This document shows positions 6,207 to 64,000 of a DNA stretch of 64,000 nt, piece after piece. A program made the position numbers and the translations under genes. Origin of the DNA: Oscillospiraceae bacterium (GTDB taxonomy: Bacteria; Bacillota; Clostridia; Oscillospirales; Ruminococcaceae). The DNA lies in assembly GCA_015067025.1 (NCBI GenBank), contig SVNC01000006.1, positions 1 to 64,000 of the forward strand. Reading direction: 5' to 3'. Under the pieces are notes generated by a model. That model was not told the origin of the DNA, ran no database searches, and saw only the letters and a program-made list of their open reading frames with translations. The first letter of the stretch is position 1, and each line of letters begins with the position of its first letter.

Positions 6207-6380
6207 TTACATATGGAAGGATTCTATAATAGAGCCTACCGCCTTTATCGCTTTTCCCGTTGCTTTTTTTGCAATATATTTCTTTGATGAAGTTACGGCT
6301 TTCGCTGTGGCAAAAGCAATACCGCCTGCTACCATTGCCGCACCGATACATTTCATATTTGCAGATGTTTTTTTAGTCAT
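6207..6380 (-). CDS. Small hydrophobic/basic protein (57 aa), absent from the ORF track
   Basis: MTKKTSANMKCIGAAMVAGGIAFATAKAVTSSKKYIAKKATGKAIKAVGSIIESFHM with RBS GAAAGGAG. Confidence 0.65.
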   Translation of the reverse strand: MTKKTSANMKCIGAAMVAGGIAFATAKAVTSSKKYIAKKATGKAIKAVGSIIESFHM

Positions 6381-6598
6381 TTTTAAAACTCCTTTCAGAA
6401 CTTTTAACGTTCCGTAATTATTTTTCTCTTTAAATAAAGCTATATTTGTTGTAATAATTGCCGATAGTAATTAGCTATAAGTTTGCATTTATTATCTAAA
6501 AGCAAGAAATTAAACTGTTTTTGAGAAATTTCTATCGACTTTTTTAAAAAAATATGCTAAAATATTTTTCGATGTTACTTTACAGAAAGGAGCTTTAT

Positions 6599-7462
6599 AT
6601 GTCACAGCACAAAAAGGTTGTTGCTATACACGATCTGTCAGGCTACGGCAGATGTGCCTTATCGGTTATAATACCTGTTATTTCTGCTACGGGTATTCAG
6701 GTAGTGCCTGTTCCGACAGCAGTACTGTCAACCCATACAGGTGGCTTTGATAATATTGCAATAAGAAACCTCACTGAGCATATTACCGATTGCTATAATC
6801 ATTATAAAGAGCTTAACGTAGATTTCGACTGTATATACAGCGGTTTTTTATCGTCTCCTGAACAGGTTGACGGATGTCTTTTATATCTTGAAGGTTATAA
6901 GGATGCATTAAAGGTTGTCGATCCCGTTTTAGGTGATAATGGAAAGCCTTATAAGACCTGCACGAAAGATCTTATGAAGAGAATGAGAGAGCTTACAGGC
7001 AAGGCGGATATAATCACTCCCAATCTTACCGAGGCGTGTATACTTCTTGATGAGGATTATCCCAAAGGACTTTCTGTAAATGAGGCTAAACAGTGGCTCA
7101 GAAGACTTGCAGATAAGCCGCAGATGGCGGTATTAAAGGGCGTTCCCCTTATAGAAAACGACGATATAGTCCTTTCCAATATCGGTTATGATAATAAGAC
7201 GGACGAATTCTGGAGAGTTGACTGGAATCATATCCCTGCAAACTATCCCGGTACGGGCGATATATTCTGCTCCGTGCTTACGTCGGCACTTATGAAAGGA
7301 CAGACTCTCCCCGAAGCTATCAGCCGTGCGGCAAAGTTTACCGAAATCACTATAAACACCACCTACAAAAACGGCACAGAAGCAAGAACAGGCGTGCTGT
7401 TTGAATATGATTTAGGCTGGCTTATGAGGGATGACGTGATAACGGAATTTAAAAGGATGTAA
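6599..7462 (+). CDS. Pyridoxamine kinase
   Basis: Ribokinase-fold motifs: VVAIHDLSGYGRCALSVIIPVISATGIQVVPVPTAVLSTHTGGF and NYPGTGDIFCSVL; RBS gaaaggag. Confidence 0.9.
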   Translation: MSQHKKVVAIHDLSGYGRCALSVIIPVISATGIQVVPVPTAVLSTHTGGFDNIAIRNLTEHITDCYNHYKELNVDFDCIYSGFLSSPEQVDGCLLYLEGYKDALKVVDPVLGDNGKPYKTCTKDLMKRMRELTGKADIITPNLTEACILLDEDYPKGLSVNEAKQWLRRLADKPQMAVLKGVPLIENDDIVLSNIGYDNKTDEFWRVDWNHIPANYPGTGDIFCSVLTSALMKGQTLPEAISRAAKFTEITINTTYKNGTEARTGVLFEYDLGWLMRDDVITEFKRM

Positions 7463-7533
7463 TGAAACCCCTGAAAAGATATTTCTTTTCAGGGGTTTTG
7501 CTATGTGTTAAATATTATTGCCTTATCGGAAAT

Positions 7534-7602
7534 CTGCCGTTCATCCTTCGTCGCAAAGCAGAAAATGATAAAAGGCAGGAATTGCCCACGGTGGCACACC
7601 GC
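7534..7602 (-). repeat. Structured repeat family 1, copy B
   Basis: Stem CTGCC/GGCAG, core GTTCATCCTTCGTCGCAAAG...GATAAAAGG, hairpin CGGTG-GCA-CACCG; abuts the TAA of the GT2 gene. Confidence 0.7.
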
Positions 7603-8559
7603 TTAGTGCTTGATGAATTTATCAATAATATATTTCGGTCTTGCTTTTACTTCGGTGTAAATCTTTCCTATATATTCACCAACAATGCCCATAGCCATTA
7701 TCTGAATACCGCTTAAGAACCAGATAGAGCACATAAGTGAGCTCCAGCCCGCCTGAGTGTTGCCGAGAATGTTCTGAACTATAGAATAGATTATAAAGCC
7801 TATACTTATAAGGAACACGATAAATCCCACAACGGTTACAAGTCTTATCGGCTTTATTGAAAAGCTGGTGATACCGTCAAAGGCAAAGGCAAGCATCTTC
7901 TTTAAAGGATACTTTGATTCGCCTGCAAAGCGTTCGCTTCTTTCGTAATATACGATATCACTCTTGAAGCCTATCTGCTTTACGATACCTCTTAAAAAGA
8001 GATTTACTTCCTTAAATTCTGACAAAGCTTCAAGTGCTTTTTTTGACATAAGTCTGTAGTCGGCGTGATTATCTACTATGTCAACTCCAAGTAGTTTCAT
8101 AAACTTGTAGAACATACCTGCTGTACCACGCTTGAAGGCGGTATCTGTCTTTCTTGAAGAGCGTACGCCGTACACTATATCACAGCCCTCGTGATATTTG
8201 TCAACGAACTTGTCCACTACGTTTATATCATCCTGAAGATCTGCGTCCATCGAGATGGTGATATCAGCGTGCTCCTTTGCAGTCATAAGGCCTGCCAGCA
8301 GGGCGTTCTGATGTCCTTTGTTGCGGCTTAAACTTATGCCGCCGAACATTTCGTCGGAGTTGTAAAGCTCTTCAATTATCTCCCAGGTTTTGTCACGGCT
8401 GCCGTCGTTTACAAAGATGATACGGCTTTTGTCGGATATCTTACCGTCATTTATGAGAGATGTCATTTTTTCTTTAAGTCTGCCTGAGGTTTCGTGCAGA
8501 ACTTCTTCTTCGTTGTAGCAGGGGACAACTATATAAAGAACGTCATTGTATTTTTCCAA
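7603..8559 (-). CDS. Family 2 glycosyltransferase (GtrB/DPM1-like, two C-terminal TM helices)
   Basis: YIVVPCYNEEEVL, FVNDGSRDKTW, ISMDADLQDD, GESKYPLKKM and C-terminal TM pair. Confidence 0.93.
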   Translation of the reverse strand: MEKYNDVLYIVVPCYNEEEVLHETSGRLKEKMTSLINDGKISDKSRIIFVNDGSRDKTWEIIEELYNSDEMFGGISLSRNKGHQNALLAGLMTAKEHADITISMDADLQDDINVVDKFVDKYHEGCDIVYGVRSSRKTDTAFKRGTAGMFYKFMKLLGVDIVDNHADYRLMSKKALEALSEFKEVNLFLRGIVKQIGFKSDIVYYERSERFAGESKYPLKKMLAFAFDGITSFSIKPIRLVTVVGFIVFLISIGFIIYSIVQNILGNTQAGWSSLMCSIWFLSGIQIMAMGIVGEYIGKIYTEVKARPKYIIDKFIKH

Positions 8560-9004: not shown

Positions 9005-11611
9005 TTGTTAAAAAAATATCACTACGCATTATCACACAGCCTAAGGAGGCGAAAGAAGTTGGAGCTTGAAACAGGCAATCAGAAGTTTTTAGACATCACT
9101 ATAGATATATCTCCAGACTTTCCTTTCACGATAAATAAAGGTAAGCCCACAGAAAAGAGCTATCCCTCTCTTACAGAGATGATAAACCCTGATGATATAC
9201 CTCCGATAACAGAGATGTTCACCGACGTATCAAATGGTGAAAGAGCAAAATTAGAGGTTCATTGCAGGTTTAAGGTAAAGGGGGATTATCACTGGTTTTA
9301 TCTGTCCTGCGATCCCGTGTATTCAGAATCGGGTAAGGCGATACAGTTTGAAGGTAAGATGGGCGACGTTTCTACCTACATAGAATCAGCAGGAGAGGAC
9401 CTTGTTTATAAGCAGTTCAGAAAGAAAAGCTTTGTAAAGCTGTCTGAACTGAGACAGAATTCAATAGAGCTGTCGGATGTTCTTGAAAAGGAATATCTTT
9501 CAGAAATGCTTATCCCCTTTACAAAAAGCGGGCTTTATTCTGCTATAGTTTCTTCTGACGGTAAGGTGATATGCACTACTGATGCCCAGTATGAAAAATC
9601 GGACAATAAATATCAGTACGTAAAGAAAAAGTCGATAAGAATAAATCATCAGATAAGCGGACACTGGATAATTGCCGCCAAGACAGAAGAACTACTCAGC
9701 CAGAATATAATGTTGTGGGAAACTCTATTCAGCACCGTTTCCCGTATGGCAAATGCTATCGTTGTTGTAATGACTGAGATGGAAAACTCTCAGAATGCAA
9801 ACAAAATGCTTGGTAAAAACGTAGAGGAGCAGATATTGCTAAACAACATCTATGCAATTATCATGGAGAGCAAGACCGCAAAGGACAGCCTGCAATCTGT
9901 AATTTCTCTTGTGGGAGATTACTTCAAGTTGGACAGAATTTCCGTTATAGATCTTTCTGCACTTGATAAGGAAGTTTATATATGGAAAAAGGATAAACAG
10001 GATAGCAGGACCTTAACCTCTGCAATTACCATTACGCCTGACGATTATCCCAATATTATGAGGGATCTGAACGAACTTTCTTCAAGTTTTTCAGATGATG
10101 AAACAAACGACCTTGAAAAGGCGGGAGTAAAGTCCTACGCTGTATTCAAGCTCTATGATGCAGGCGAATTTGACGGACTTTTGGCTTATGAGATACTTGA
10201 AGAAAAGCACACCTGGAAGCAAAGAGAAAAGAAGCAGCTCCGTAATATCGCACAGATAATTTCATCAATTATCATGCAGATGAAGGTCCAGGAAAAGCTG
10301 GAAGAGTCGCAGGATAAAATGCGTCAGCTTGCTTTCTATGACGCTATTTACAATATCCCTAACCGTGCAAGGCTCAACAAGGATTTAGGTACGCTTTTAC
10401 GTAAAGGTACGGAAGGTTCGCTTATCGCTTTCAAGGTTACCAATACGAGAAATCTTTCAGCAGTAAACGGACACACCTATTCGGATATGCTGCTGAGAAG
10501 TGTGGCACAGTATCTTAAAACTCTCCCGATTAAAAATTTAGGGGTGTACTACTTTACCAATGCTATTTTTATGCTGAATTTACCGGGATGTACAGGCGAC
10601 GAGCCGAAACGCCTTACCGAAATGCTGATACATAAATTTTCAAAGCCCTGGAAATTCGGCGGAGATGAGCTTAATATCAACTGTAGCTTAGGTATAGCCT
10701 ATTATCCTCTTAACGGTAAGACCTCTGAAGAAATATGCAAGGCGGCAAGCGTTGCAATGTACAGAGCAAGAGAATTCAAGCGTAACAGCTACACCTTCTA
10801 TTCCGGCAATCTTGAAAAGACCCGCACTTTCGCGGCAACTCTTGAAAATAGAATAAAGGAAAGCTTTGATAATGGAATGAAGGGCTTTTCACTGAAATTT
10901 CAGCCTGCCTTTTCTGCTGATAACGGCAACGTTATATACTGTGAAAGTCTTGTCAGATGGAATGATGAAAAGTTCGGCAATATCCCCAACTCCACCTTGT
11001 TTCCACTACTTGAAAACTTAGGCCTTTCATCACTCATAGACGGTTGGGTAATGGAGCAGTCCTGCCTTTTCTGTAAGAAAATACAGCAAAACGGCAACCC
11101 TGATTTCAAAGTGAGCGTTAATCTGACTGCCAGTGAGATACAGTCAAGTGCTATTGTGGCACAGGTGAAAAAAGCATTGCAGTTAAGCGGACTTTCGGCG
11201 TCATCTCTGATACTTGAAATTCCCGTAAAGGCAAACGTATCTTATAACGACAGTACACATATCCTGACCGATCTTAAAGCTATAGGTATAAGCGTTGCTA
11301 TTGACAGCTACGGCACTGAGGATATATCGCTTAAAATACTTAAAAATTCCTACGTAGATATTATTAATATTCCCTGCGTGCTTCTTTCCACTGAGGAAGA
11401 GGAATTTGACAGGGTGCTTGTAAATTCTATAATCGAGCTTGCCCATTGTAAAAATATAAGCGTCTGCATAAAGGGCATTGAAGATGAAACGATGCTCAAA
11501 GCGGCGACCGATCACAAAATAGACTGGGTTCAGGGCTATTATTGTTCAAAGCCCTTATGGAGTGATGAAGCGGCAAAGATACTTATGGGCAGTATGAAAA
11601 AAATCTTGTAA
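9005..11611 (+). CDS. PAS-like/GAF-like protein with degenerate GGDEF and degenerate EAL domains
   Basis: GGDEF position reads YFTNAIFML; EAL reads ESL and later metal/catalytic motifs are altered (IDSYGTEDISL, DIINIP, KGIEDE); QGYYCSKPL retained; TTG start uncertain. Confidence 0.8.
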   Translation: MLKKYHYALSHSLRRRKKLELETGNQKFLDITIDISPDFPFTINKGKPTEKSYPSLTEMINPDDIPPITEMFTDVSNGERAKLEVHCRFKVKGDYHWFYLSCDPVYSESGKAIQFEGKMGDVSTYIESAGEDLVYKQFRKKSFVKLSELRQNSIELSDVLEKEYLSEMLIPFTKSGLYSAIVSSDGKVICTTDAQYEKSDNKYQYVKKKSIRINHQISGHWIIAAKTEELLSQNIMLWETLFSTVSRMANAIVVVMTEMENSQNANKMLGKNVEEQILLNNIYAIIMESKTAKDSLQSVISLVGDYFKLDRISVIDLSALDKEVYIWKKDKQDSRTLTSAITITPDDYPNIMRDLNELSSSFSDDETNDLEKAGVKSYAVFKLYDAGEFDGLLAYEILEEKHTWKQREKKQLRNIAQIISSIIMQMKVQEKLEESQDKMRQLAFYDAIYNIPNRARLNKDLGTLLRKGTEGSLIAFKVTNTRNLSAVNGHTYSDMLLRSVAQYLKTLPIKNLGVYYFTNAIFMLNLPGCTGDEPKRLTEMLIHKFSKPWKFGGDELNINCSLGIAYYPLNGKTSEEICKAASVAMYRAREFKRNSYTFYSGNLEKTRTFAATLENRIKESFDNGMKGFSLKFQPAFSADNGNVIYCESLVRWNDEKFGNIPNSTLFPLLENLGLSSLIDGWVMEQSCLFCKKIQQNGNPDFKVSVNLTASEIQSSAIVAQVKKALQLSGLSASSLILEIPVKANVSYNDSTHILTDLKAIGISVAIDSYGTEDISLKILKNSYVDIINIPCVLLSTEEEEFDRVLVNSIIELAHCKNISVCIKGIEDETMLKAATDHKIDWVQGYYCSKPLWSDEAAKILMGSMKKIL

Positions 11612-55753: not shown

Positions 55754-56161
55754 TTAATTTCCGTTCCAGAGGTTGTAGTATCTTAAAGCGGTTTTCATAA
55801 AATCTTCGGTAACGCCGAAATGCTCCGCCAGCTCCCAAAGCTCGTTTACTCCGCTTTTAAGAAGCTTTACAACTACCCTTCTCGGAATGGTATTTCTTAT
55901 CGCCCAGACGTCGGCTCTGCGTTCTATCCTTCCTCTTGGTACGATGGGACAATCCTCATCGTAAAAGGAATTTGTAATGCAATGCCCAAGCTCATGGGCG
56001 GATTTTACTTTATAATCAGCGTGACTTTTTACTTTGCGGCGGTCTATTGCTATCATGCAAAAGCCGTTTATACTGTGACTCATAGCCTCTTCATTTCCGT
56101 ACATCCTCATATCAATAATGGGGATGTCGTTTTTCTGTGCTATCTTCATAAGATTTTTCAA
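55754..56161 (-). CDS. ImmA/IrrE-family metallopeptidase (prophage)
   Basis: HELGHCITNSFYDEDCP metalloprotease motif; directly downstream of the phage-type repressor. Confidence 0.85.
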   Translation of the reverse strand: MKNLMKIAQKNDIPIIDMRMYGNEEAMSHSINGFCMIAIDRRKVKSHADYKVKSAHELGHCITNSFYDEDCPIVPRGRIERRADVWAIRNTIPRRVVVKLLKSGVNELWELAEHFGVTEDFMKTALRYYNLWNGN

Positions 56162-56201
56162 AATTCACGCCTCCTTACGTTTAAAACTTGTTTAAAGGTC
56201 C

Positions 56202-56546
56202 TTAGTTATTCTCCTGTTCCTTTTGTTTCTGACGGTATTTTAAATGCTCCATAGCAAGTCTTTTAACGTCGTCTAAAACGTCATCGTCAATTTCTGTATC
56301 ACCGAAAAGTGCAAACTTCAGCTTGCTGTCAGAAATTGATACAGTGTCGTATTCGCTGAGAAGAAAATCCGTATCTGTACCGAAAAAATCTGCAATTGCT
56401 TTTAACGTGTCGAAATCAGGTTCACGCTTGCCCAGCTCGTAAAGACTGTAGCCCTGCTTTGTCATGCCTAAATGCTCCGCTACCTCAGCCTGGGAAAAAC
56501 CCTTCTTTTTACGGAGAGCTTTGATATTTTCTGAAAAAATACTCAT
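56202..56546 (-). CDS. XRE-family phage repressor (ImmR/cI-like)
   Basis: ENIKALRKKKGFSQAEVAEHLGMTKQGYSLYELGKREPDFDTLKAIADFFG. Confidence 0.9.
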   Translation of the reverse strand: MSIFSENIKALRKKKGFSQAEVAEHLGMTKQGYSLYELGKREPDFDTLKAIADFFGTDTDFLLSEYDTVSISDSKLKFALFGDTEIDDDVLDDVKRLAMEHLKYRQKQKEQENN

Positions 56547-56592
56547 AGCTTAAGACCTTCCTTATTTTATTTTTACATTTTACTGTGCTTAA

Positions 56593-56776
56593 ATTATATC
56601 AACGATATGTTGATAAGTCAACATAGTGTTGTAAAATTCTACGTTTTCCACAACAAAAGCAACAAACTGTTGACGCTTTCTCTATATTTCTCACAAACTT
56701 TAAAAAATTATCAACAAACTGTTGACAAATCTGTTTCTTTGTGATATCCTTGTGTCAAAGGACAACAAATCGTTGA
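56593..56776. promoter_or_regulatory. Bidirectional lysogeny switch: five TCAAC-N5-GTTGA operators and two sigma-A-type promoters
   Basis: Operators at 56599-56613, 56618-56632, 56659-56673, 56711-56725, 56762-56776; minus promoter TTGACT-N17-TATAAT (56621-56593); plus promoter TTGACA-N17-TATCCT from 56722. Confidence 0.85.
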
Positions 56777-56854
56777 CTTCGACAAACGGCTTACATCCCT
56801 TAAACAAATAATAACACGAGCTGTGTACGATAAACTGTACAGAAAGGAGGATGA

Positions 56855-57007
56855 ATGTACACCTGTACAAAATGCAAAAACAAATTTCAGACAGAGGACT
56901 TAGATTATATTTCGGTACAGTACGGAGAGTGCTGGGGATATCCTGCTTATAAAAGAGAATGGTGCTGTCCTATATGCAAGGGAGAAGTAGAAGAAAATGA
57001 AGAGTGA
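56855..57007 (+). CDS. Small zinc-ribbon-like phage protein (50 aa), absent from the ORF track
   Basis: MYTCTKCKNKFQTEDLDYISVQYGECWGYPAYKREWCCPICKGEVEENEE; RBS AGAAAGGAGG. Confidence 0.8.
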   Translation: MYTCTKCKNKFQTEDLDYISVQYGECWGYPAYKREWCCPICKGEVEENEE

Positions 57008-57465
57008 CCTGTCTTTTGAAAGGAGGTGATAGTATAAACAGCAAATATCAGGAATATCTGACTGAAAAGGGACAGGAAAAGCTAAGCTCCTTCAGCTTAA
57101 TGGGTTACGATACTTCACAGATCGCAAAAAAGATAGGCGTCAGCGAAAAAACACTTTTAGCCTGGTGCAGTAAATATCCTGAAATAAATAAGGCTGTCCA
57201 TAGCGGCGATGATATGGCTGACAAGCTTGTGGAAAAGGCTCTTTTCAAAAGAGCGGTGGGATACGTTCAGACTGAAAGAGTTCAGCAACTGAGCAAGGAG
57301 GGAGATATGGAGCTTGTTAAGATCGTTGAAAAGGAGGTCATGCCCAGCACCACGGCACAGATATTCTGGCTTAAAAACCGCTGTGGCTACGAGTGGGACG
57401 GCAGGACAGAGGACGAGGAAGATGATGAAAGCGGAGTTGTGGTATTACCGCCGATAGAGAGGTGA
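57004..57465 (+). CDS. Phage terminase small subunit-like protein (start codon ambiguous)
   Basis: HTH MGYDTSQIAKKIGVSEKTLLAWCSKYPEI; immediately upstream of the terminase large subunit. Confidence 0.8.
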   Translation: MTCLLKGGDSINSKYQEYLTEKGQEKLSSFSLMGYDTSQIAKKIGVSEKTLLAWCSKYPEINKAVHSGDDMADKLVEKALFKRAVGYVQTERVQQLSKEGDMELVKIVEKEVMPSTTAQIFWLKNRCGYEWDGRTEDEEDDESGVVVLPPIER

Positions 57466-57469
57466 CAGA

Positions 57470-58918
57470 ATGAAAAATAAAAGAAATATATGCTGGTCGC
57501 CTCAACCGAAGCAGATACAGTTCTTATGCCGCCCTGAATATGAAGCCTTATACGGCGGTGCGGCAGGCGGCGGTAAGTCGGATGCATTACTTGCAGAGGC
57601 TCTTCGTCAGGTACATATACCCCATTACAGAGCGATCATATTCCGTAAGACCTATCCGCAGTTATCGGAGCTTATTGATAGGTCAAGAGAGATATATACG
57701 GCGGCATTCCCCAAGGCTACCTACAACAGTACCAATCATTGCTGGACGTTTCCTTCAGGTGCAAAAATCTACTTCGGTAGTATGCAATATGCAAAGGACA
57801 AGACGCAGTATCAGGGTAAAAGATATGATTTTATCGGCTTTGACGAGCTTACGCACTTTACTTTTGAGGAGTACAGCTATATGTTCTCCCGAAACAGACC
57901 TGGTGGAGAAGGAACAAGGGTGTATATAAGAGCTACCGCAAACCCCGGAGGAATAGGGCACGGCTGGGTAAAGCAGAGATTTATAACCGCCGCAAAGCCT
58001 ATGACTCCCATTGTAGATACGTATACAGTTTACGACCCATCAGGAAAGCCGATAAAGATTGAAAAAAGTCGTATATTTATTCCTGCAAGCGTTTTCGATA
58101 ATCAGAAGCTACTCAGCAATGACCCTGAATACCTCGCATCTCTTGCAATGCTTCCCGAAGCGGAAAAGAATGCTCTGCTCTACGGCGATTGGGACAGCTT
58201 TTCAGGTCAGGTATTTTCAGAGTGGGTAGATGATAAAGCACATTATGAGGACAGACAATGGACTCACGTTATAGCTCCCTTCAGGATACCGTCCGACTGG
58301 ACGGTAGTACGTGGTTTCGACTTTGGTTATGCAAAGCCCTTTTCGGTAGGCTGGTATGCGGTCGACCGCAGAGGATGTATATACCGCATAGCAGAATATT
58401 ACGGCTGTACTGAAACGCCAAACACGGGGCTTATGATAAATCCTGTAGAGATTGCGGCAGAAATAAAGCGGATAGAAAGCGAAAACGAAAATCTTAAGGG
58501 CAGAACCATAACGGGTATAGCAGACCCGTCAATATTTGACCGCAGCCGTGGTGAAAGCGTTGCAGATCTTATGTCAATGCCACCTAACTTTATTCTGTGG
58601 AGTGGTGGTGACAACACGAGAATAGCAGGAAAAATGCAGTATCATTATCGGCTTATGTTTAATAAGGACGGACTGCCGATGTTCTACTGCTTTAACACCT
58701 GTAAGCATTTTATCCGTACCATTCCTGCTCTTGTATACGATGACAAGAAGGTTGAGGATATCAATACGGATCAGGAGGATCATATCTACGATGAATGCAG
58801 ATACGTGCTTATGGCAAATCCTATGACCGCTCCGAGAGAAAGAGCAGAGCTACCATACACAGACGATCCCCTTGAGCAAAGAAAGAAGAAAAACGATTAT
58901 TCGTTCTATAACATTTAG
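57470..58918 (+). CDS. terL: Phage terminase large subunit
   Basis: Walker A YGGAAGGGKSDALL, Walker B-like FIGFDELTHF, TANPGGIGHGWVKQRF, nuclease-type GFDFGYAKPFS. Confidence 0.95.
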   Translation: MKNKRNICWSPQPKQIQFLCRPEYEALYGGAAGGGKSDALLAEALRQVHIPHYRAIIFRKTYPQLSELIDRSREIYTAAFPKATYNSTNHCWTFPSGAKIYFGSMQYAKDKTQYQGKRYDFIGFDELTHFTFEEYSYMFSRNRPGGEGTRVYIRATANPGGIGHGWVKQRFITAAKPMTPIVDTYTVYDPSGKPIKIEKSRIFIPASVFDNQKLLSNDPEYLASLAMLPEAEKNALLYGDWDSFSGQVFSEWVDDKAHYEDRQWTHVIAPFRIPSDWTVVRGFDFGYAKPFSVGWYAVDRRGCIYRIAEYYGCTETPNTGLMINPVEIAAEIKRIESENENLKGRTITGIADPSIFDRSRGESVADLMSMPPNFILWSGGDNTRIAGKMQYHYRLMFNKDGLPMFYCFNTCKHFIRTIPALVYDDKKVEDINTDQEDHIYDECRYVLMANPMTAPRERAELPYTDDPLEQRKKKNDYSFYNI

Positions 58919-58927
58919 GAGGTAATT

Positions 58928-60562
58928 TTGAATCAAAAGAGAAAAATAGGCAGGGATCAGCTTATCCGTGCCGAACAGACGTTAAAGAAATATAAGGCGG
59001 GCAAGGCAAATCTTGAAAACCGCATTATATCCAATGAGCAGTGGTGGAAAATGCGTCACTGGGGAGAGATAAGCGGAACGGAATACGACGTAAACCGCCC
59101 CCGTCCTGCATCGGCGTGGCTTTTCAATTCACTGGCAAATAAGCATGCAGATGCTATGGATAATATTCCTGAGCCTTCCGTTCTCCCAAGAGAGCAGGAT
59201 GACGAAATAGCGGCAAAGGGACTGTCAGAAATGCTCCCTATCGTGCTTGAACGCTCAGGCTATGAAAAGCTGTACAGCGATATGTGGTGGTACAAGCTTA
59301 AAAACGGAACTGCCTGTCAGGCGGTACTGTGGGATCCCGTCCTTGATAACGGCAGAGGAGATATAGCAATAAAGAATATAGATCTGCTTAACCTTTTCTG
59401 GCAACCGGGTATCAAGAATATTGAGGACAGCAGAAACGTGTTTTACGTAAGCCTTTACGATAACGATCTGCTTTGTGATATGTATCCCGAACTTCAGGGA
59501 AAGCTTGGCGGTGATACGGTAAACGTGGCAGGCTATAAATTTGATGACAATATTGACGTATCGGAAAAATCAGCAGTTATCGACTGGTATTACAAGGTAA
59601 GAACTGCATCTGGTGATATTCTGCACTATTGCCGTTTTGTCGGCGATACGGTGCTTTATGCAAGTGAGGATGACGAGCTTTGTGAAAAGGGCTTTTATGA
59701 GCACGGCAGATATCCATTTGTTTTGGATCCTCTTTTTATGCAGGAGGGCACGCCCTGTGGCTTTGGTTATATTGATATTATGCGAGATGCCCAGATGTAC
59801 ATAGATAAGTTAGGTCAGGTGATTTTAGAACATACCGTACAGATGAGCAGAAAGCGATATTTTATAAAGCTTGGCGGTGCGGTGAGAGAAGAGGAATTTG
59901 CAGATTTCCGAAAGCCCTTTGTACACGTGGCGGGAAATTTATCTGATGATGATATAAGAGAAATACGTCTTGATCCTCTTGACAGTGCCGTGATGACCGC
60001 TATGAACAATAAGATCGAAGAACTTAAGGAGACAAGCGGCAACAGAGATTTCTCTCAAGGCGGCACTTCAGGCGGTGTTACTGCCGCCAGTGCTATTGCG
60101 GCACTTCAGGAAGCAGGCAACAAGCTCTCCCGTGATATGATAAAGGGCAGTTATTTTGCCTTTACAAACGTCTGCTATCTGATAATCGAGCTTATAAGAC
60201 AGTTTTATAACACACCGAGAAGTTATCTTTTATCAGGAGATTTTAAAAGCTTTGATAACAGTCTGCTGAAAAGTAAAGAAAGATACTTGTTCGGAGAAGT
60301 AATTGAACCGCACAAACCTGTTTTTGATGTTATATGCAAGGCGGCGAAGAAATCTCCCTTTTCAAAGGCGGCACAGAATGAGCTTGCAAAGGAGCTGTTT
60401 CATATAGGCTTTTTCCGTCCCGAGCTATCAGAGCAGGCTTTAGCGGCAATTGAAATAATGGATTTTGAAGGAAAGGAAAACATCAGAGATTCCATTTCAA
60501 AAATTGCTGAAAGCTATAAAGCTATGCAGGCTGCACTGCAATCAGGCGGTGATCTTCTGTGA
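58928..60562 (+). CDS. Phage portal protein
   Basis: Position directly after terL; size 544 aa; portal-like sequence WLFNSLANKHADAMDNIPEPSVLPRE. Confidence 0.85.
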   Translation: MNQKRKIGRDQLIRAEQTLKKYKAGKANLENRIISNEQWWKMRHWGEISGTEYDVNRPRPASAWLFNSLANKHADAMDNIPEPSVLPREQDDEIAAKGLSEMLPIVLERSGYEKLYSDMWWYKLKNGTACQAVLWDPVLDNGRGDIAIKNIDLLNLFWQPGIKNIEDSRNVFYVSLYDNDLLCDMYPELQGKLGGDTVNVAGYKFDDNIDVSEKSAVIDWYYKVRTASGDILHYCRFVGDTVLYASEDDELCEKGFYEHGRYPFVLDPLFMQEGTPCGFGYIDIMRDAQMYIDKLGQVILEHTVQMSRKRYFIKLGGAVREEEFADFRKPFVHVAGNLSDDDIREIRLDPLDSAVMTAMNNKIEELKETSGNRDFSQGGTSGGVTAASAIAALQEAGNKLSRDMIKGSYFAFTNVCYLIIELIRQFYNTPRSYLLSGDFKSFDNSLLKSKERYLFGEVIEPHKPVFDVICKAAKKSPFSKAAQNELAKELFHIGFFRPELSEQALAAIEIMDFEGKENIRDSISKIAESYKAMQAALQSGGDLL

Positions 60563-60879
60563 CAGATATAACCGTAAAAAAGACAAGTCTTGGCAGAGAA
60601 ATTTATATAAAAGGTCACGCAGGTGACGGAGTGCAGAAAGAAGGCAGTGTAGTGTGTGCGGCAATCAGCACTCTGGCCCAGACTTTAGCTCAGAACCTTT
60701 TTGATTATGAGGATGAGGGAGAAGTGGATATTATAGGGGTTTCTCTTAAAAGCGGCGACGCGTATTTTAACTACGTTACCGATAATGAAGACGTAAACAA
60801 AGTCGTGGACGGCATCTGCAAAGGATTTTACCTTGTCAGCGACAGCTTCCCCGAAAGAGTTGCGTTTGATATTATATAA
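60559..60879 (+). CDS. Prp-type (YsxB-like) cysteine protease within the phage head module
   Basis: KGHAGDGVQKEGSVVCAAISTLAQTLAQNL matches the GHAG...VCAA.S.L His/Cys signature; overlaps the portal stop. Confidence 0.88.
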   Translation: MTDITVKKTSLGREIYIKGHAGDGVQKEGSVVCAAISTLAQTLAQNLFDYEDEGEVDIIGVSLKSGDAYFNYVTDNEDVNKVVDGICKGFYLVSDSFPERVAFDII

Positions 60880-60887
60880 ATTTTTTA

Positions 60888-61559
60888 ATGAAAGGAGGTG
60901 ATAAATTGCTTGATCTGACACTTTTTGAAGAGACTGCAACGAATACCGAAGCTGTGACAGGAGCTACAGAGGTATCAGAAAATGTATCTGACTTTGCAGA
61001 AAAGCCTGATGATAGCCCTGCTTCTGCTGATGAATTTTACCGCAGGGTAAAGGAAATAAAGGCACGTCAGCATACCGCTGAAAAGGAAATAGTTTCTCTT
61101 ATGGCAAAACGCTTTGGTGTGGCAAAGGGAGATTATGAGGGTATAAAAGCGGCAATCGACATTGATATCGCAAAAAGCGAAAAATCCGATGACATTTCCG
61201 ATAAGCTGAAATTATGGCAGGAAAGAGAAGCGGAAGTACAGAAATTATATCCCGGTTTTGTTCTGGCAAACGAGCTTCAGAACAGGGACTTCTTCAACCT
61301 TTGTTACAATGGCGTTGACATTATGACGGCGTATCAGGTACTGCATTTTGATGATATTCTAATGGCGGCTATGAGCTATGCTATATCTGAAATGCGAAGG
61401 GCAGATACGTTGCGGGGAAATTCAGAAAATCAAAGAGCAAGAGAAGGTGCGCTGGATGACAGTTCACGAAAAATGCGACAGGAAAAACCAAAGCTCACGA
61501 GAAAGGAAAGAAATGAGCTTATAAGAAGAGCCGAAAGAGGCGAAACGGTAAGACTTTAA
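60888..61559 (+). CDS. Candidate phage scaffolding protein (start may be TTG at 60906)
   Basis: Charged helix-rich protein between protease and capsid genes. Confidence 0.6.
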   Translation: MKGGDKLLDLTLFEETATNTEAVTGATEVSENVSDFAEKPDDSPASADEFYRRVKEIKARQHTAEKEIVSLMAKRFGVAKGDYEGIKAAIDIDIAKSEKSDDISDKLKLWQEREAEVQKLYPGFVLANELQNRDFFNLCYNGVDIMTAYQVLHFDDILMAAMSYAISEMRRADTLRGNSENQRAREGALDDSSRKMRQEKPKLTRKERNELIRRAERGETVRL

Positions 61560-61578
61560 TTAAGAAAGGAAAAACAAA

Positions 61579-62577
61579 ATGAAAAAGTATTTTAATTTTA
61601 AGATCGATCTTTTTGAAACACAGACAACATCTCAGGATTCTTTATCCGCAGAGATGAAGACGTTTTATGAGAACACTCTCATTGATATGGCAGAGCCGAA
61701 GCTTGTACACGACCGCTTTGGCGACAAGTACCCCATTCCTAAGAACGGTGGTAAGACTATAGAATTCAGAAAGTACAGCCCTCTTCAGAAGGCGACTACA
61801 CCTCTTGTTGAAGGTGTTACCCCTGCGGGCAACTCCCTTTCTGTATCAAACGTAACAGCAACGGTAAATCAGTACGGTGACTACATCAAGCTTTCCGATA
61901 TGCTGGAGCTTACTGCAATTGATAATAACGTGGTGCAGTCCACTAAGCTGCTTGGCAGTCAGTCCGGCAGAACTCTCGATACTATCACAAGAGAGGTTAT
62001 AAACGCAGGTACAAACGTAATTTATGCCGCAAAGGCTGACGGTACAGAAGTACTTTCAAGAGAAGACCTTGATAACACCTGTGCTCTTACAGTTGACACT
62101 ATCTTTAAGGCGTCGGCACAGCTTGAGCTTATGAACGCCGACGGTATTGACGGTGAAAATTACGTAGCTATCATTCATCCTTACGCGGCTTATGACCTTA
62201 TGAGAAGCAAGGAATGGATCGACGTACATAAGTATGCAGAGCCTGAAAACATCTTTAAGGGTGAAATCGGTTCTATCGGTAACGTGCGTTTTGTAAAGTC
62301 CACAGAAGCAAAGATCTGGAAGGATGAGACCTGCCCCGAAGGTCTTGCAGTATTCTCAACGTTAGTGCTCGGTGCTCACGCCTATGCGGTAACAGACGTT
62401 ACAGGCGGTGGACTTCAGCACATTGTAAAGCAGCTTGGTTACGGTGACGACCCTCTTAACCAGAGAGCGTCAGTGGGCTGGAAGGCTACAAGAGTGGCAG
62501 AAATTCTTTCCGATGAATATATGGTAAGAATTGAAAGCTGTTCTCCCGTTTATTCAGCAAAGGCGAATGCCAACTGA
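61579..62577 (+). CDS. Phage major capsid protein, N4-gp56-like family
   Basis: DRFGDKYPIPKNGGKTIEFRKYSPLQKATTPLVEGVTPAGNSLSVSNVTATVNQYGDYIKLSDML. Confidence 0.88.
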   Translation: MKKYFNFKIDLFETQTTSQDSLSAEMKTFYENTLIDMAEPKLVHDRFGDKYPIPKNGGKTIEFRKYSPLQKATTPLVEGVTPAGNSLSVSNVTATVNQYGDYIKLSDMLELTAIDNNVVQSTKLLGSQSGRTLDTITREVINAGTNVIYAAKADGTEVLSREDLDNTCALTVDTIFKASAQLELMNADGIDGENYVAIIHPYAAYDLMRSKEWIDVHKYAEPENIFKGEIGSIGNVRFVKSTEAKIWKDETCPEGLAVFSTLVLGAHAYAVTDVTGGGLQHIVKQLGYGDDPLNQRASVGWKATRVAEILSDEYMVRIESCSPVYSAKANAN

Positions 62578-62593
62578 TAACAACATATAACTG

Positions 62594-62630
62594 AATATAC
62601 CCTCAGGCGAAAGCCTGAGGGTAAATATAT
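62594..62630 (+). terminator. Hairpin TACCCTCAGGC-GAAA-GCCTGAGGGTA after the capsid gene
   Basis: 11-bp perfect stem with GAAA tetraloop; no long T-tract. Confidence 0.65.
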
Positions 62631-62649
62631 AAGAAAGGAAAATTCTATT

Positions 62650-62901
62650 ATGACAAAGAAAGATAATAAGCTCTCAGAGCTTGTAACAATAAAGCTTTTC
62701 AAGGACGGAGAAAAGTATAACGACGACGTTTTCGTAGCGGTAAACGGAAATAGTTATCAGATAAAAAGAGGAGAAACGGTGCAGGTGCCTATGTTTATAA
62801 AGCTCCAGCTTGACAGAGCAGAGGAGCAGAGAAAAAAGGCTGAATATTACCGCGATGAGGGCTGGAAGCAGTCGCTTATAATTCAGGAAGGAAAGAACTG
62901 A
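62650..62901 (+). CDS. Hypothetical small phage structural protein
   Basis: RBS gaaaggaa; position between capsid and connector genes. Confidence 0.65.
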   Translation: MTKKDNKLSELVTIKLFKDGEKYNDDVFVAVNGNSYQIKRGETVQVPMFIKLQLDRAEEQRKKAEYYRDEGWKQSLIIQEGKN

Positions 62902-62923
62902 AAACAAGCAGAAAGGAGAATTT

Positions 62924-63286
62924 ATGACAATAAAAGAAGCGATAGAGAGATCTGACAGATTAAGACCGAACAGCTTTTCGGCAGATGAAAAAATCGGTTG
63001 GCTTACCGATTTTGAAAACCGTGTATATAATGAGATCTATTCTACTCATAAGTGCGATATTCCCTTTACTGTAGTTGCTGACGCAACGGAAGAAACAGAG
63101 CTTTTTGTCACCTCTCCCTATGATGAAATGTACCTGCTTTATCTGTGCTCAATGATAGATTTTGCAAATGCAGAGTATGACCGTTACAACAATGATATGG
63201 CAATGCTTGAAAGCGTTTACGGGGATTATGAAAGGTATTTCAACAACACCCACGAATATGCCCTTGGTACGCTGATAAGTGGTTAG
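62924..63286 (+). CDS. Candidate head-tail connector protein
   Basis: Position and size; RBS gaaaggag. Confidence 0.55.
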   Translation: MTIKEAIERSDRLRPNSFSADEKIGWLTDFENRVYNEIYSTHKCDIPFTVVADATEETELFVTSPYDEMYLLYLCSMIDFANAEYDRYNNDMAMLESVYGDYERYFNNTHEYALGTLISG

Positions 63287-63294
63287 GAGGAGGT

Positions 63295-64000
63295 ATGAAA
63301 TATAAAAAGCTAAGAAGACTCGGGAATTCCGTAATCTATCAGACCCGGTTCTCCGGCATAAACAACCTTAACGGTACACCGCTTGGTGAATGGGAAGAGA
63401 TGCACAATATGACGTCAGACAGTTATCCTGCGGTACGCAATATGCCTTGCCGCAGATATAAAAGTCTGCCTATTGATATGACAGGCTTTATGTTTAAAGA
63501 CGATATGCTTGTGTATACCGTGTCTGACGGTATATATATCGGAGATACAAAGATCGACCTTGAGCTTACTGAAACAAGAAAAAAGCTTGTATCTATGGGT
63601 GCATATATTGTTATACTTCCTGACTGGATAGTAATAAACACAGAGGATATGACGAATATCGATAGCTTAAGAGTAACGATTACAGGCGGTACGCTTTATG
63701 AGAAAAATATAAATCAGACATCTCCTACAATCGATATACGCAAGCTGATGTATTATGAAACAGATTCCTCAAACCTTTCCCTTTCTCTTTTGCAGGTGGG
63801 TGACAGAGTCACACTTGAATATGCGTATAAAAACAGAGCTTATTCCATCAGAGCTTACATAACCGCTATAAGCGATGATGAGGACTACCTTCCCGAAGGG
63901 AAAACTGCAATAATTTTTGATACAACAGGCGATTTATATCAAAGTACCCGATATTTTTACACAGAACAAAGGGATATGACCGGGGGCAGAACGGTTGCAA
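63295..64000 (+). CDS. Hypothetical phage structural protein, truncated by the window edge (absent from the ORF track)
   Basis: ATG after aggagg; open frame MKYKKLRRLGNSVIYQTRFSGINNLNGTPLGEWEEMHNM... to the window end. Confidence 0.75.
   Translation, partial: MKYKKLRRLGNSVIYQTRFSGINNLNGTPLGEWEEMHNMTSDSYPAVRNMPCRRYKSLPIDMTGFMFKDDMLVYTVSDGIYIGDTKIDLELTETRKKLVSMGAYIVILPDWIVINTEDMTNIDSLRVTITGGTLYEKNINQTSPTIDIRKLMYYETDSSNLSLSLLQVGDRVTLEYAYKNRAYSIRAYITAISDDEDYLPEGKTAIIFDTTGDLYQSTRYFYTEQRDMTGGRTVA

Follow-up and report, generated by a model that had tools for sequence, protein, structure and literature searches.

Prp is an essential ribosome-maturation enzyme and an antibiotic target in Firmicutes, and its discovery arose from a phage borrowing the host enzyme. 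The 64,000-nucleotide stretch of DNA analysed here (the window) carries a gene for a Prp-like protein among phage head genes. Inspection of the letters alone (the sequence-only reading) had placed a Prp-like cysteine protease at 60559-60879 and had taken it for the prohead protease.

A Prp gene in the head operon

The head genes are all encoded on the forward strand, in the order terminase small subunit (57004..57465), terminase large subunit (57470..58918), P22-like portal (58928..60562; PF16510, phrog_156), Prp (60559..60879), scaffold (60906..61559; phrog_13908) and N4-gp56-family major capsid protein (61579..62577; TIGR04387 at 1e-91, phrog_1357), both terminase subunits being assigned by Pfam/PHROGs matches. 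The neighbours that the sequence-only reading had named, a portal upstream and a scaffold and an N4-gp56 capsid downstream, were thereby confirmed by Pfam, PHROGs and TIGR04387. The capsid gene is followed on its 3' side by two small ORFs without known function and a match to an internal-virion-protein family and, further downstream, by genes for a tail-fibre-like protein, a 315-aa protein without match, a holin and an endolysin. The claim of the sequence-only reading that no classical S14/S49/U35 head protease is present also held among the prophage's predicted proteins that were scanned, in which the sole further peptidase, an ImmA-like metalloprotease, adjoins the repressor.

The scaffold ORF is open from an ATG at 60888; its start is probably the TTG at 60906, since the Shine-Dalgarno sequence before this codon, AAAGGAGGTGATAAA, is kept in relatives.

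The prophage-like element (L004) spans approximately 13.7 kb, from 55754 to 64000 of the window and onwards to contig position ~69425, and contains genes for head, tail and lysis functions besides those for the ImmA-like protease and the repressor. Neither an integrase nor a replication gene was seen within it, and a search of its borders gave no att-like direct repeats; the element may be a very small phage, or else a satellite or a remnant. A repeat, CAACAAACTGTTGAC, occurs three times at 56660-56777, in the interval that separates the late operon from the divergent repressor gene; the third copy reads CAACAAATCGTTGAC, and these repeats look like repressor operators.

The encoded protein belongs to the Prp superfamily

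The prp gene starts with GTG, overlaps the portal stop by 4 nt and encodes a 106-aa protein with the motif GHAG...VVCAAIS. This protein matched Pfam PF04327 (Peptidase_Prp) with 37 bits, against a curated cut-off of 27 (E=4e-9), and phrog_4478, annotated as 'peptidase', at 4e-20. An AlphaFold2 model, for which an alignment of 41 phage homologues served as input, reached a pLDDT of 95.2, its least confident block being residues 21-30, a loop known to be flexible in other Prps. When this model was used to search the PDB, the top 14 matches were all Prp-family structures, including 2g0j, 1s12, 2idl, 4peo and 7kld, the last being S. aureus Prp with a bound peptide; query TM-scores were 0.61-0.75 (2g0j, 1s12, 7kld and others). 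A phmmer search of the PDB had returned a designed repeat protein as its sole match, which was judged spurious, a matter that the fold search settled.

The catalytic region comprises G19, His20 (60616-60618) and Cys33 (60655-60657), and the Ser at C+4 (S37) is retained. Both His and Cys are invariant among the 41 phage homologues. Comparison of the gene with three relatives gave a dN of 0.10-0.22 and a dS of 0.9-1.4, i.e. purifying selection, from which it follows that the gene is maintained. By profile, fold and catalytic residues, 60559-60879 on the forward strand encodes a member of the Prp superfamily (PF04327/MEROPS C108, clan CR), and the coordinates, GHAG...VCAAIS signature and portal overlap originally reported for it stand.

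As the sequence-only reading had suggested checking, a host copy was sought near rpmA and was found: the same genome carries, flanked by rplU and rpmA, a canonical prp distinct from the phage copy, together with a long L27 that begins MIKISLQHF|AHKKG (here and below, the bar marks the known or putative cut). The phage copy is thus a second Prp. When Prp proteins were placed in a tree, the 14 host genes formed a single clade (support 96) with the phage genes outside it, many forks not being resolved because the protein is short. The window gene thus falls outside the host clade, lies away from rplU/rpmA and lacks the loop Asp of L27-processing Prps, its loop reading EGSVVC, with Ser at the position of S. 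aureus Asp31, where the host copy reads GQDIIC.

Putative cut sites in the head proteins

From the TTG start, the scaffold begins MLDLTLF|EETA, with a predicted cleavable leader at 60906..60926, while the capsid protein begins MKKYFNFKIDLF|ETQT (site FKIDLF|E), with a predicted leader at 61579..61614, both on the forward strand. The two sites are Prp-like in having a hydrophobic P4 and Phe at P1, lack Gln at P3 and Ala at P1', and have an acidic P1' residue. Under shuffling, each of them alone is only mildly unlikely (~0.11 and 0.07), and the comparison was therefore extended to relatives. An 83-aa ORF after the capsid gene was also considered as a substrate (TIKLFKDG) and rejected, as this motif is no better conserved than its surroundings and would place Lys at P1'.

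Scans with a capsid alignment yielded 45 genome loci and 80 viral loci, in which the pattern [LIM]xxF[ADEGSV] was scored ahead of the conserved capsid core. Related N4-gp56 phages also have prp between portal and scaffold, and a capsid site is present in 70 of the 74 dereplicated relatives in which a phage prp is adjacent, against 7.2 expected from residue shuffling; most of the exceptions carry LQLL|A. The Prp motif which the sequence-only reading proposed to look for at the scaffold and capsid N-termini is thus present in the window and across these relatives. Whether P3 is Gln or not agrees between capsid and scaffold in 60 of the 62 genomes with both sites (Fisher p=1e-12, kinship ignored), and private variants are paired within a genome, LHLF occurring in both proteins of one locus (L119) and LRLF|D in both proteins of another (L107). 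The scaffold site is absent in two close relatives (L041, L042) and in L008, L015, L020 and L040, so that the capsid protein would be the constant substrate.

Similar arrangements were observed at a greater distance. One locus encodes a highly divergent Prp-like protein (L073:4641-4934; EHADDPIIC) with a Pfam score below the cut-off, its capsid and scaffold carrying LNMF|D and LSMF|D. In other head families, a Prp is found near a phrog_172 scaffold and a phrog_840 or phrog_544 capsid with LQLF|A sites, and in one phage with a different head family, L009, which likewise encodes a Prp close by, scaffold (6344-6919), capsid (6928-7851) and major tail protein (9695-10219) each start with an LQLFA site. 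Phage proteins labelled 'Cysteine protease' and 'YsxB-like' in BFVD share the Prp fold.

The substrate-binding loop and the P3 residue

The P3 Gln of the substrate is hydrogen-bonded by Asp31 and Gly29 of S. aureus Prp, of which Asp31 is essential, the D31A variant being inactive (PMC9405229). Among phage Prps with the loop Asp, P3 is Gln in 47 of 50, and in none of the 23 lacking it (p=5e-16, kinship ignored); the three exceptions, which keep Asp and have another residue at P3, have a loop that is one residue shorter (PGNDIVC). The window Prp sits in the group without this residue. Mapped on the capsid tree, the Asp state requires 4 changes and the P3 state requires 6, with too few independent pairs for significance; strong as the pattern linking them is, it therefore depends on a small number of evolutionary events. 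Conservation suggests that the window enzyme would be active despite the loss of this residue. Given that loss and the lack of P3 Gln and P1' Ala in its putative sites, the window Prp probably does not act on L27.

Phages without a Prp of their own

Thirteen dereplicated loci with enough upstream sequence lack prp. Nine of these have a site, in all nine cases of the host type, with P3 Gln and P1' Ala (L/I-Q-x-F|A); no site was detected in the other four, one of which (L091) may have a misassigned start. In a further locus (L077:4856-5158), the gene between portal and scaffold encodes a Prp homologue that has lost both catalytic residues (GRS, no Cys), and the capsid protein of this locus retains a host-type LQHF|A site. 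The prp-less loci and L077 are consistent with a scheme in which a phage relies either on the host enzyme or on one that it encodes itself, only phages of the second kind being able to depart from the host site.

Fusions of Prp and scaffold

After dereplication, there are 21 loci in which Prp and scaffold form a single ORF; they come from genomes of Faecalibacterium and Ruminiclostridium and from IMG/VR contigs. These fusions are the most novel part of the findings. A site is present at the junction in 21 of 21, being MMDLQLF|AEGE and alike in the Faecalibacterium group and VDLCRF|DGE and alike in the Ruminiclostridium group. In the AlphaFold model of one Faecalibacterium fusion (L053), the Prp domain is followed by a disordered linker that contains the site (pLDDT <50) and by a helical scaffold domain. 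With a cut site at its own junction, such a protease would free itself.

In the majority of the fused loci, an ATG or GTG lies directly 5' of the site; the ribosome-binding sites look weak except in L030, where an ATG with a GAGGTG Shine-Dalgarno sequence directly precedes it. By analogy with lambda C/Nu3, free scaffold might in that locus also arise from an internal start.

Discussion

The gene under study lies in a head operon, and head proteins of this phage carry matching sites that are conserved across relatives, as would be expected of a head protease. The best explanation, to which we assign a probability of roughly 0.85, is that the window Prp is the phage's own head-maturation protease, a His/Cys enzyme of Prp fold that would remove short N-terminal leaders from the capsid protein and, in this phage, from the scaffold during procapsid assembly, and that probably does not share the substrates of the host Prp, since loop and sites have both changed. 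The prohead-protease reading originally advanced is thereby supported by the sites in the window, in the relatives and at the fusion junctions, as a prediction of cleavage. The cleavage itself, the exact bond, the timing and the orthogonality of the phage enzyme to that of the host are what we infer from these sequences. The further notion of a private specificity, in which Ser in place of Asp31 and sites with a non-Gln P3 and an acidic P1' would constitute an enzyme-substrate pair orthogonal to host Prp and L27, with the fused relatives being self-freeing, appears to us somewhat more plausible than not.

Three other readings were weighed against this. The protein could be an assembly factor or chaperone of capsid and scaffold that has no catalytic role and for which recognition of the leader rather than cutting matters; staphylococcal phage 80alpha requires its scaffold leader but not the cleavage of it (PMC5744158), and the absence of an Asp31 of the S. 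aureus type could mean low activity. The invariant His and Cys argue against such a role, as does the fact that the sole homologue without both residues, L077, retains a site predicted to be host-cleavable, and we regard it as improbable. Slightly less probable still is processing of the phage proteins by host Prp, with a phage copy that is redundant or in decay: several related phages without prp do carry L/I-Q-x-F|A sites, and 80alpha uses host Prp (PMC5744158), but the window sites have neither the P3 Gln nor the P1' Ala, and the phage gene is under purifying selection.

Least probable, and very much so, is a phage Prp that is directed chiefly at a protein of the host, be it L27 or some other protein with the site, and thereby controls the ribosome or host physiology. 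L27 is the defining cellular substrate of the family and the host has a long L27 with the site MIKISLQHF|A; the phage gene, however, is situated in the head operon, the sites are on capsid and scaffold, scaffold fusions exist, the window sites differ from that of host L27 at P3 and P1', and the host genes form a clade of their own. The head-maturation protease is therefore the reading we retain.

A literature search of incomplete coverage retrieved no paper on a phage-encoded Prp family, on scaffold fusions or on changed sites. The findings imply that many gut phages carry their own Prp with putative substrates that can be read from sequence, a natural data set on Prp specificity that includes protease-scaffold fusions and an enzyme loop that apparently co-varies with the cut site. 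Many small, unannotated phage genes can now be named as likely head proteases, and the reason for capsid-leader trimming in these phages becomes directly testable.

Protease-scaffold fusions or nested genes are known from lambda C/Nu3 and herpesvirus assemblin which, like the Faecalibacterium and Ruminiclostridium relatives, have the protease in cis with the scaffold and a release site between the two. The lambda and herpesvirus proteases have unrelated serine-protease folds, however, and in the window protease and scaffold are separate genes. A further comparison is offered by orf13 of Streptococcus phage Cp-1, which is taken here to be the capsid protease of that phage, and which hhalign related to the phage Prp family with a probability of 95% (E=3e-8), its Pfam score being below the cut-off. 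Like the window phage, Cp-1 encodes a small protease of the Prp clan (clan CR), which trims the N-terminus of the major head protein by 48 aa (PMC12445089, citing Martin et al. 1998); in contrast to the window prp, orf13 is highly divergent, belongs to a phi29-like phage, goes with a 48-residue leader and lies away from portal and scaffold.

The Prp of S. aureus and other Firmicutes (YsxB, MEROPS C108), which trims L27, has the same fold, His/Cys dyad and Ser at C+4 as the window protein, and its substrates share with the putative window sites a hydrophobic P4 and a Phe at P1 (PMC9405229). The window copy differs from cellular Prp in its head-operon location, its loop Ser in place of Asp, its separate clade and putative substrates without P3 Gln and P1' Ala. 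The S. aureus L27 site is LKLNLQFF|A, and those of 80alpha are KFNLQFF|A and KLNLQHF|A (PMC9405229, PMC5744158). As in the window phage, the capsid and scaffold of 80alpha both have N-terminal leaders with Prp sites; 80alpha differs in having no protease of its own, both proteins being cut at an L27-like site by host Prp (PMC5744158, PMC9405229). Uncleavable capsid and scaffold mutants of 80alpha are viable (PMC5744158), and cleavage may therefore not be essential in the window phage either. The use of Prp on phage heads is thus already known from 80alpha and Cp-1, and the window Prp would be a re-targeted version of it.
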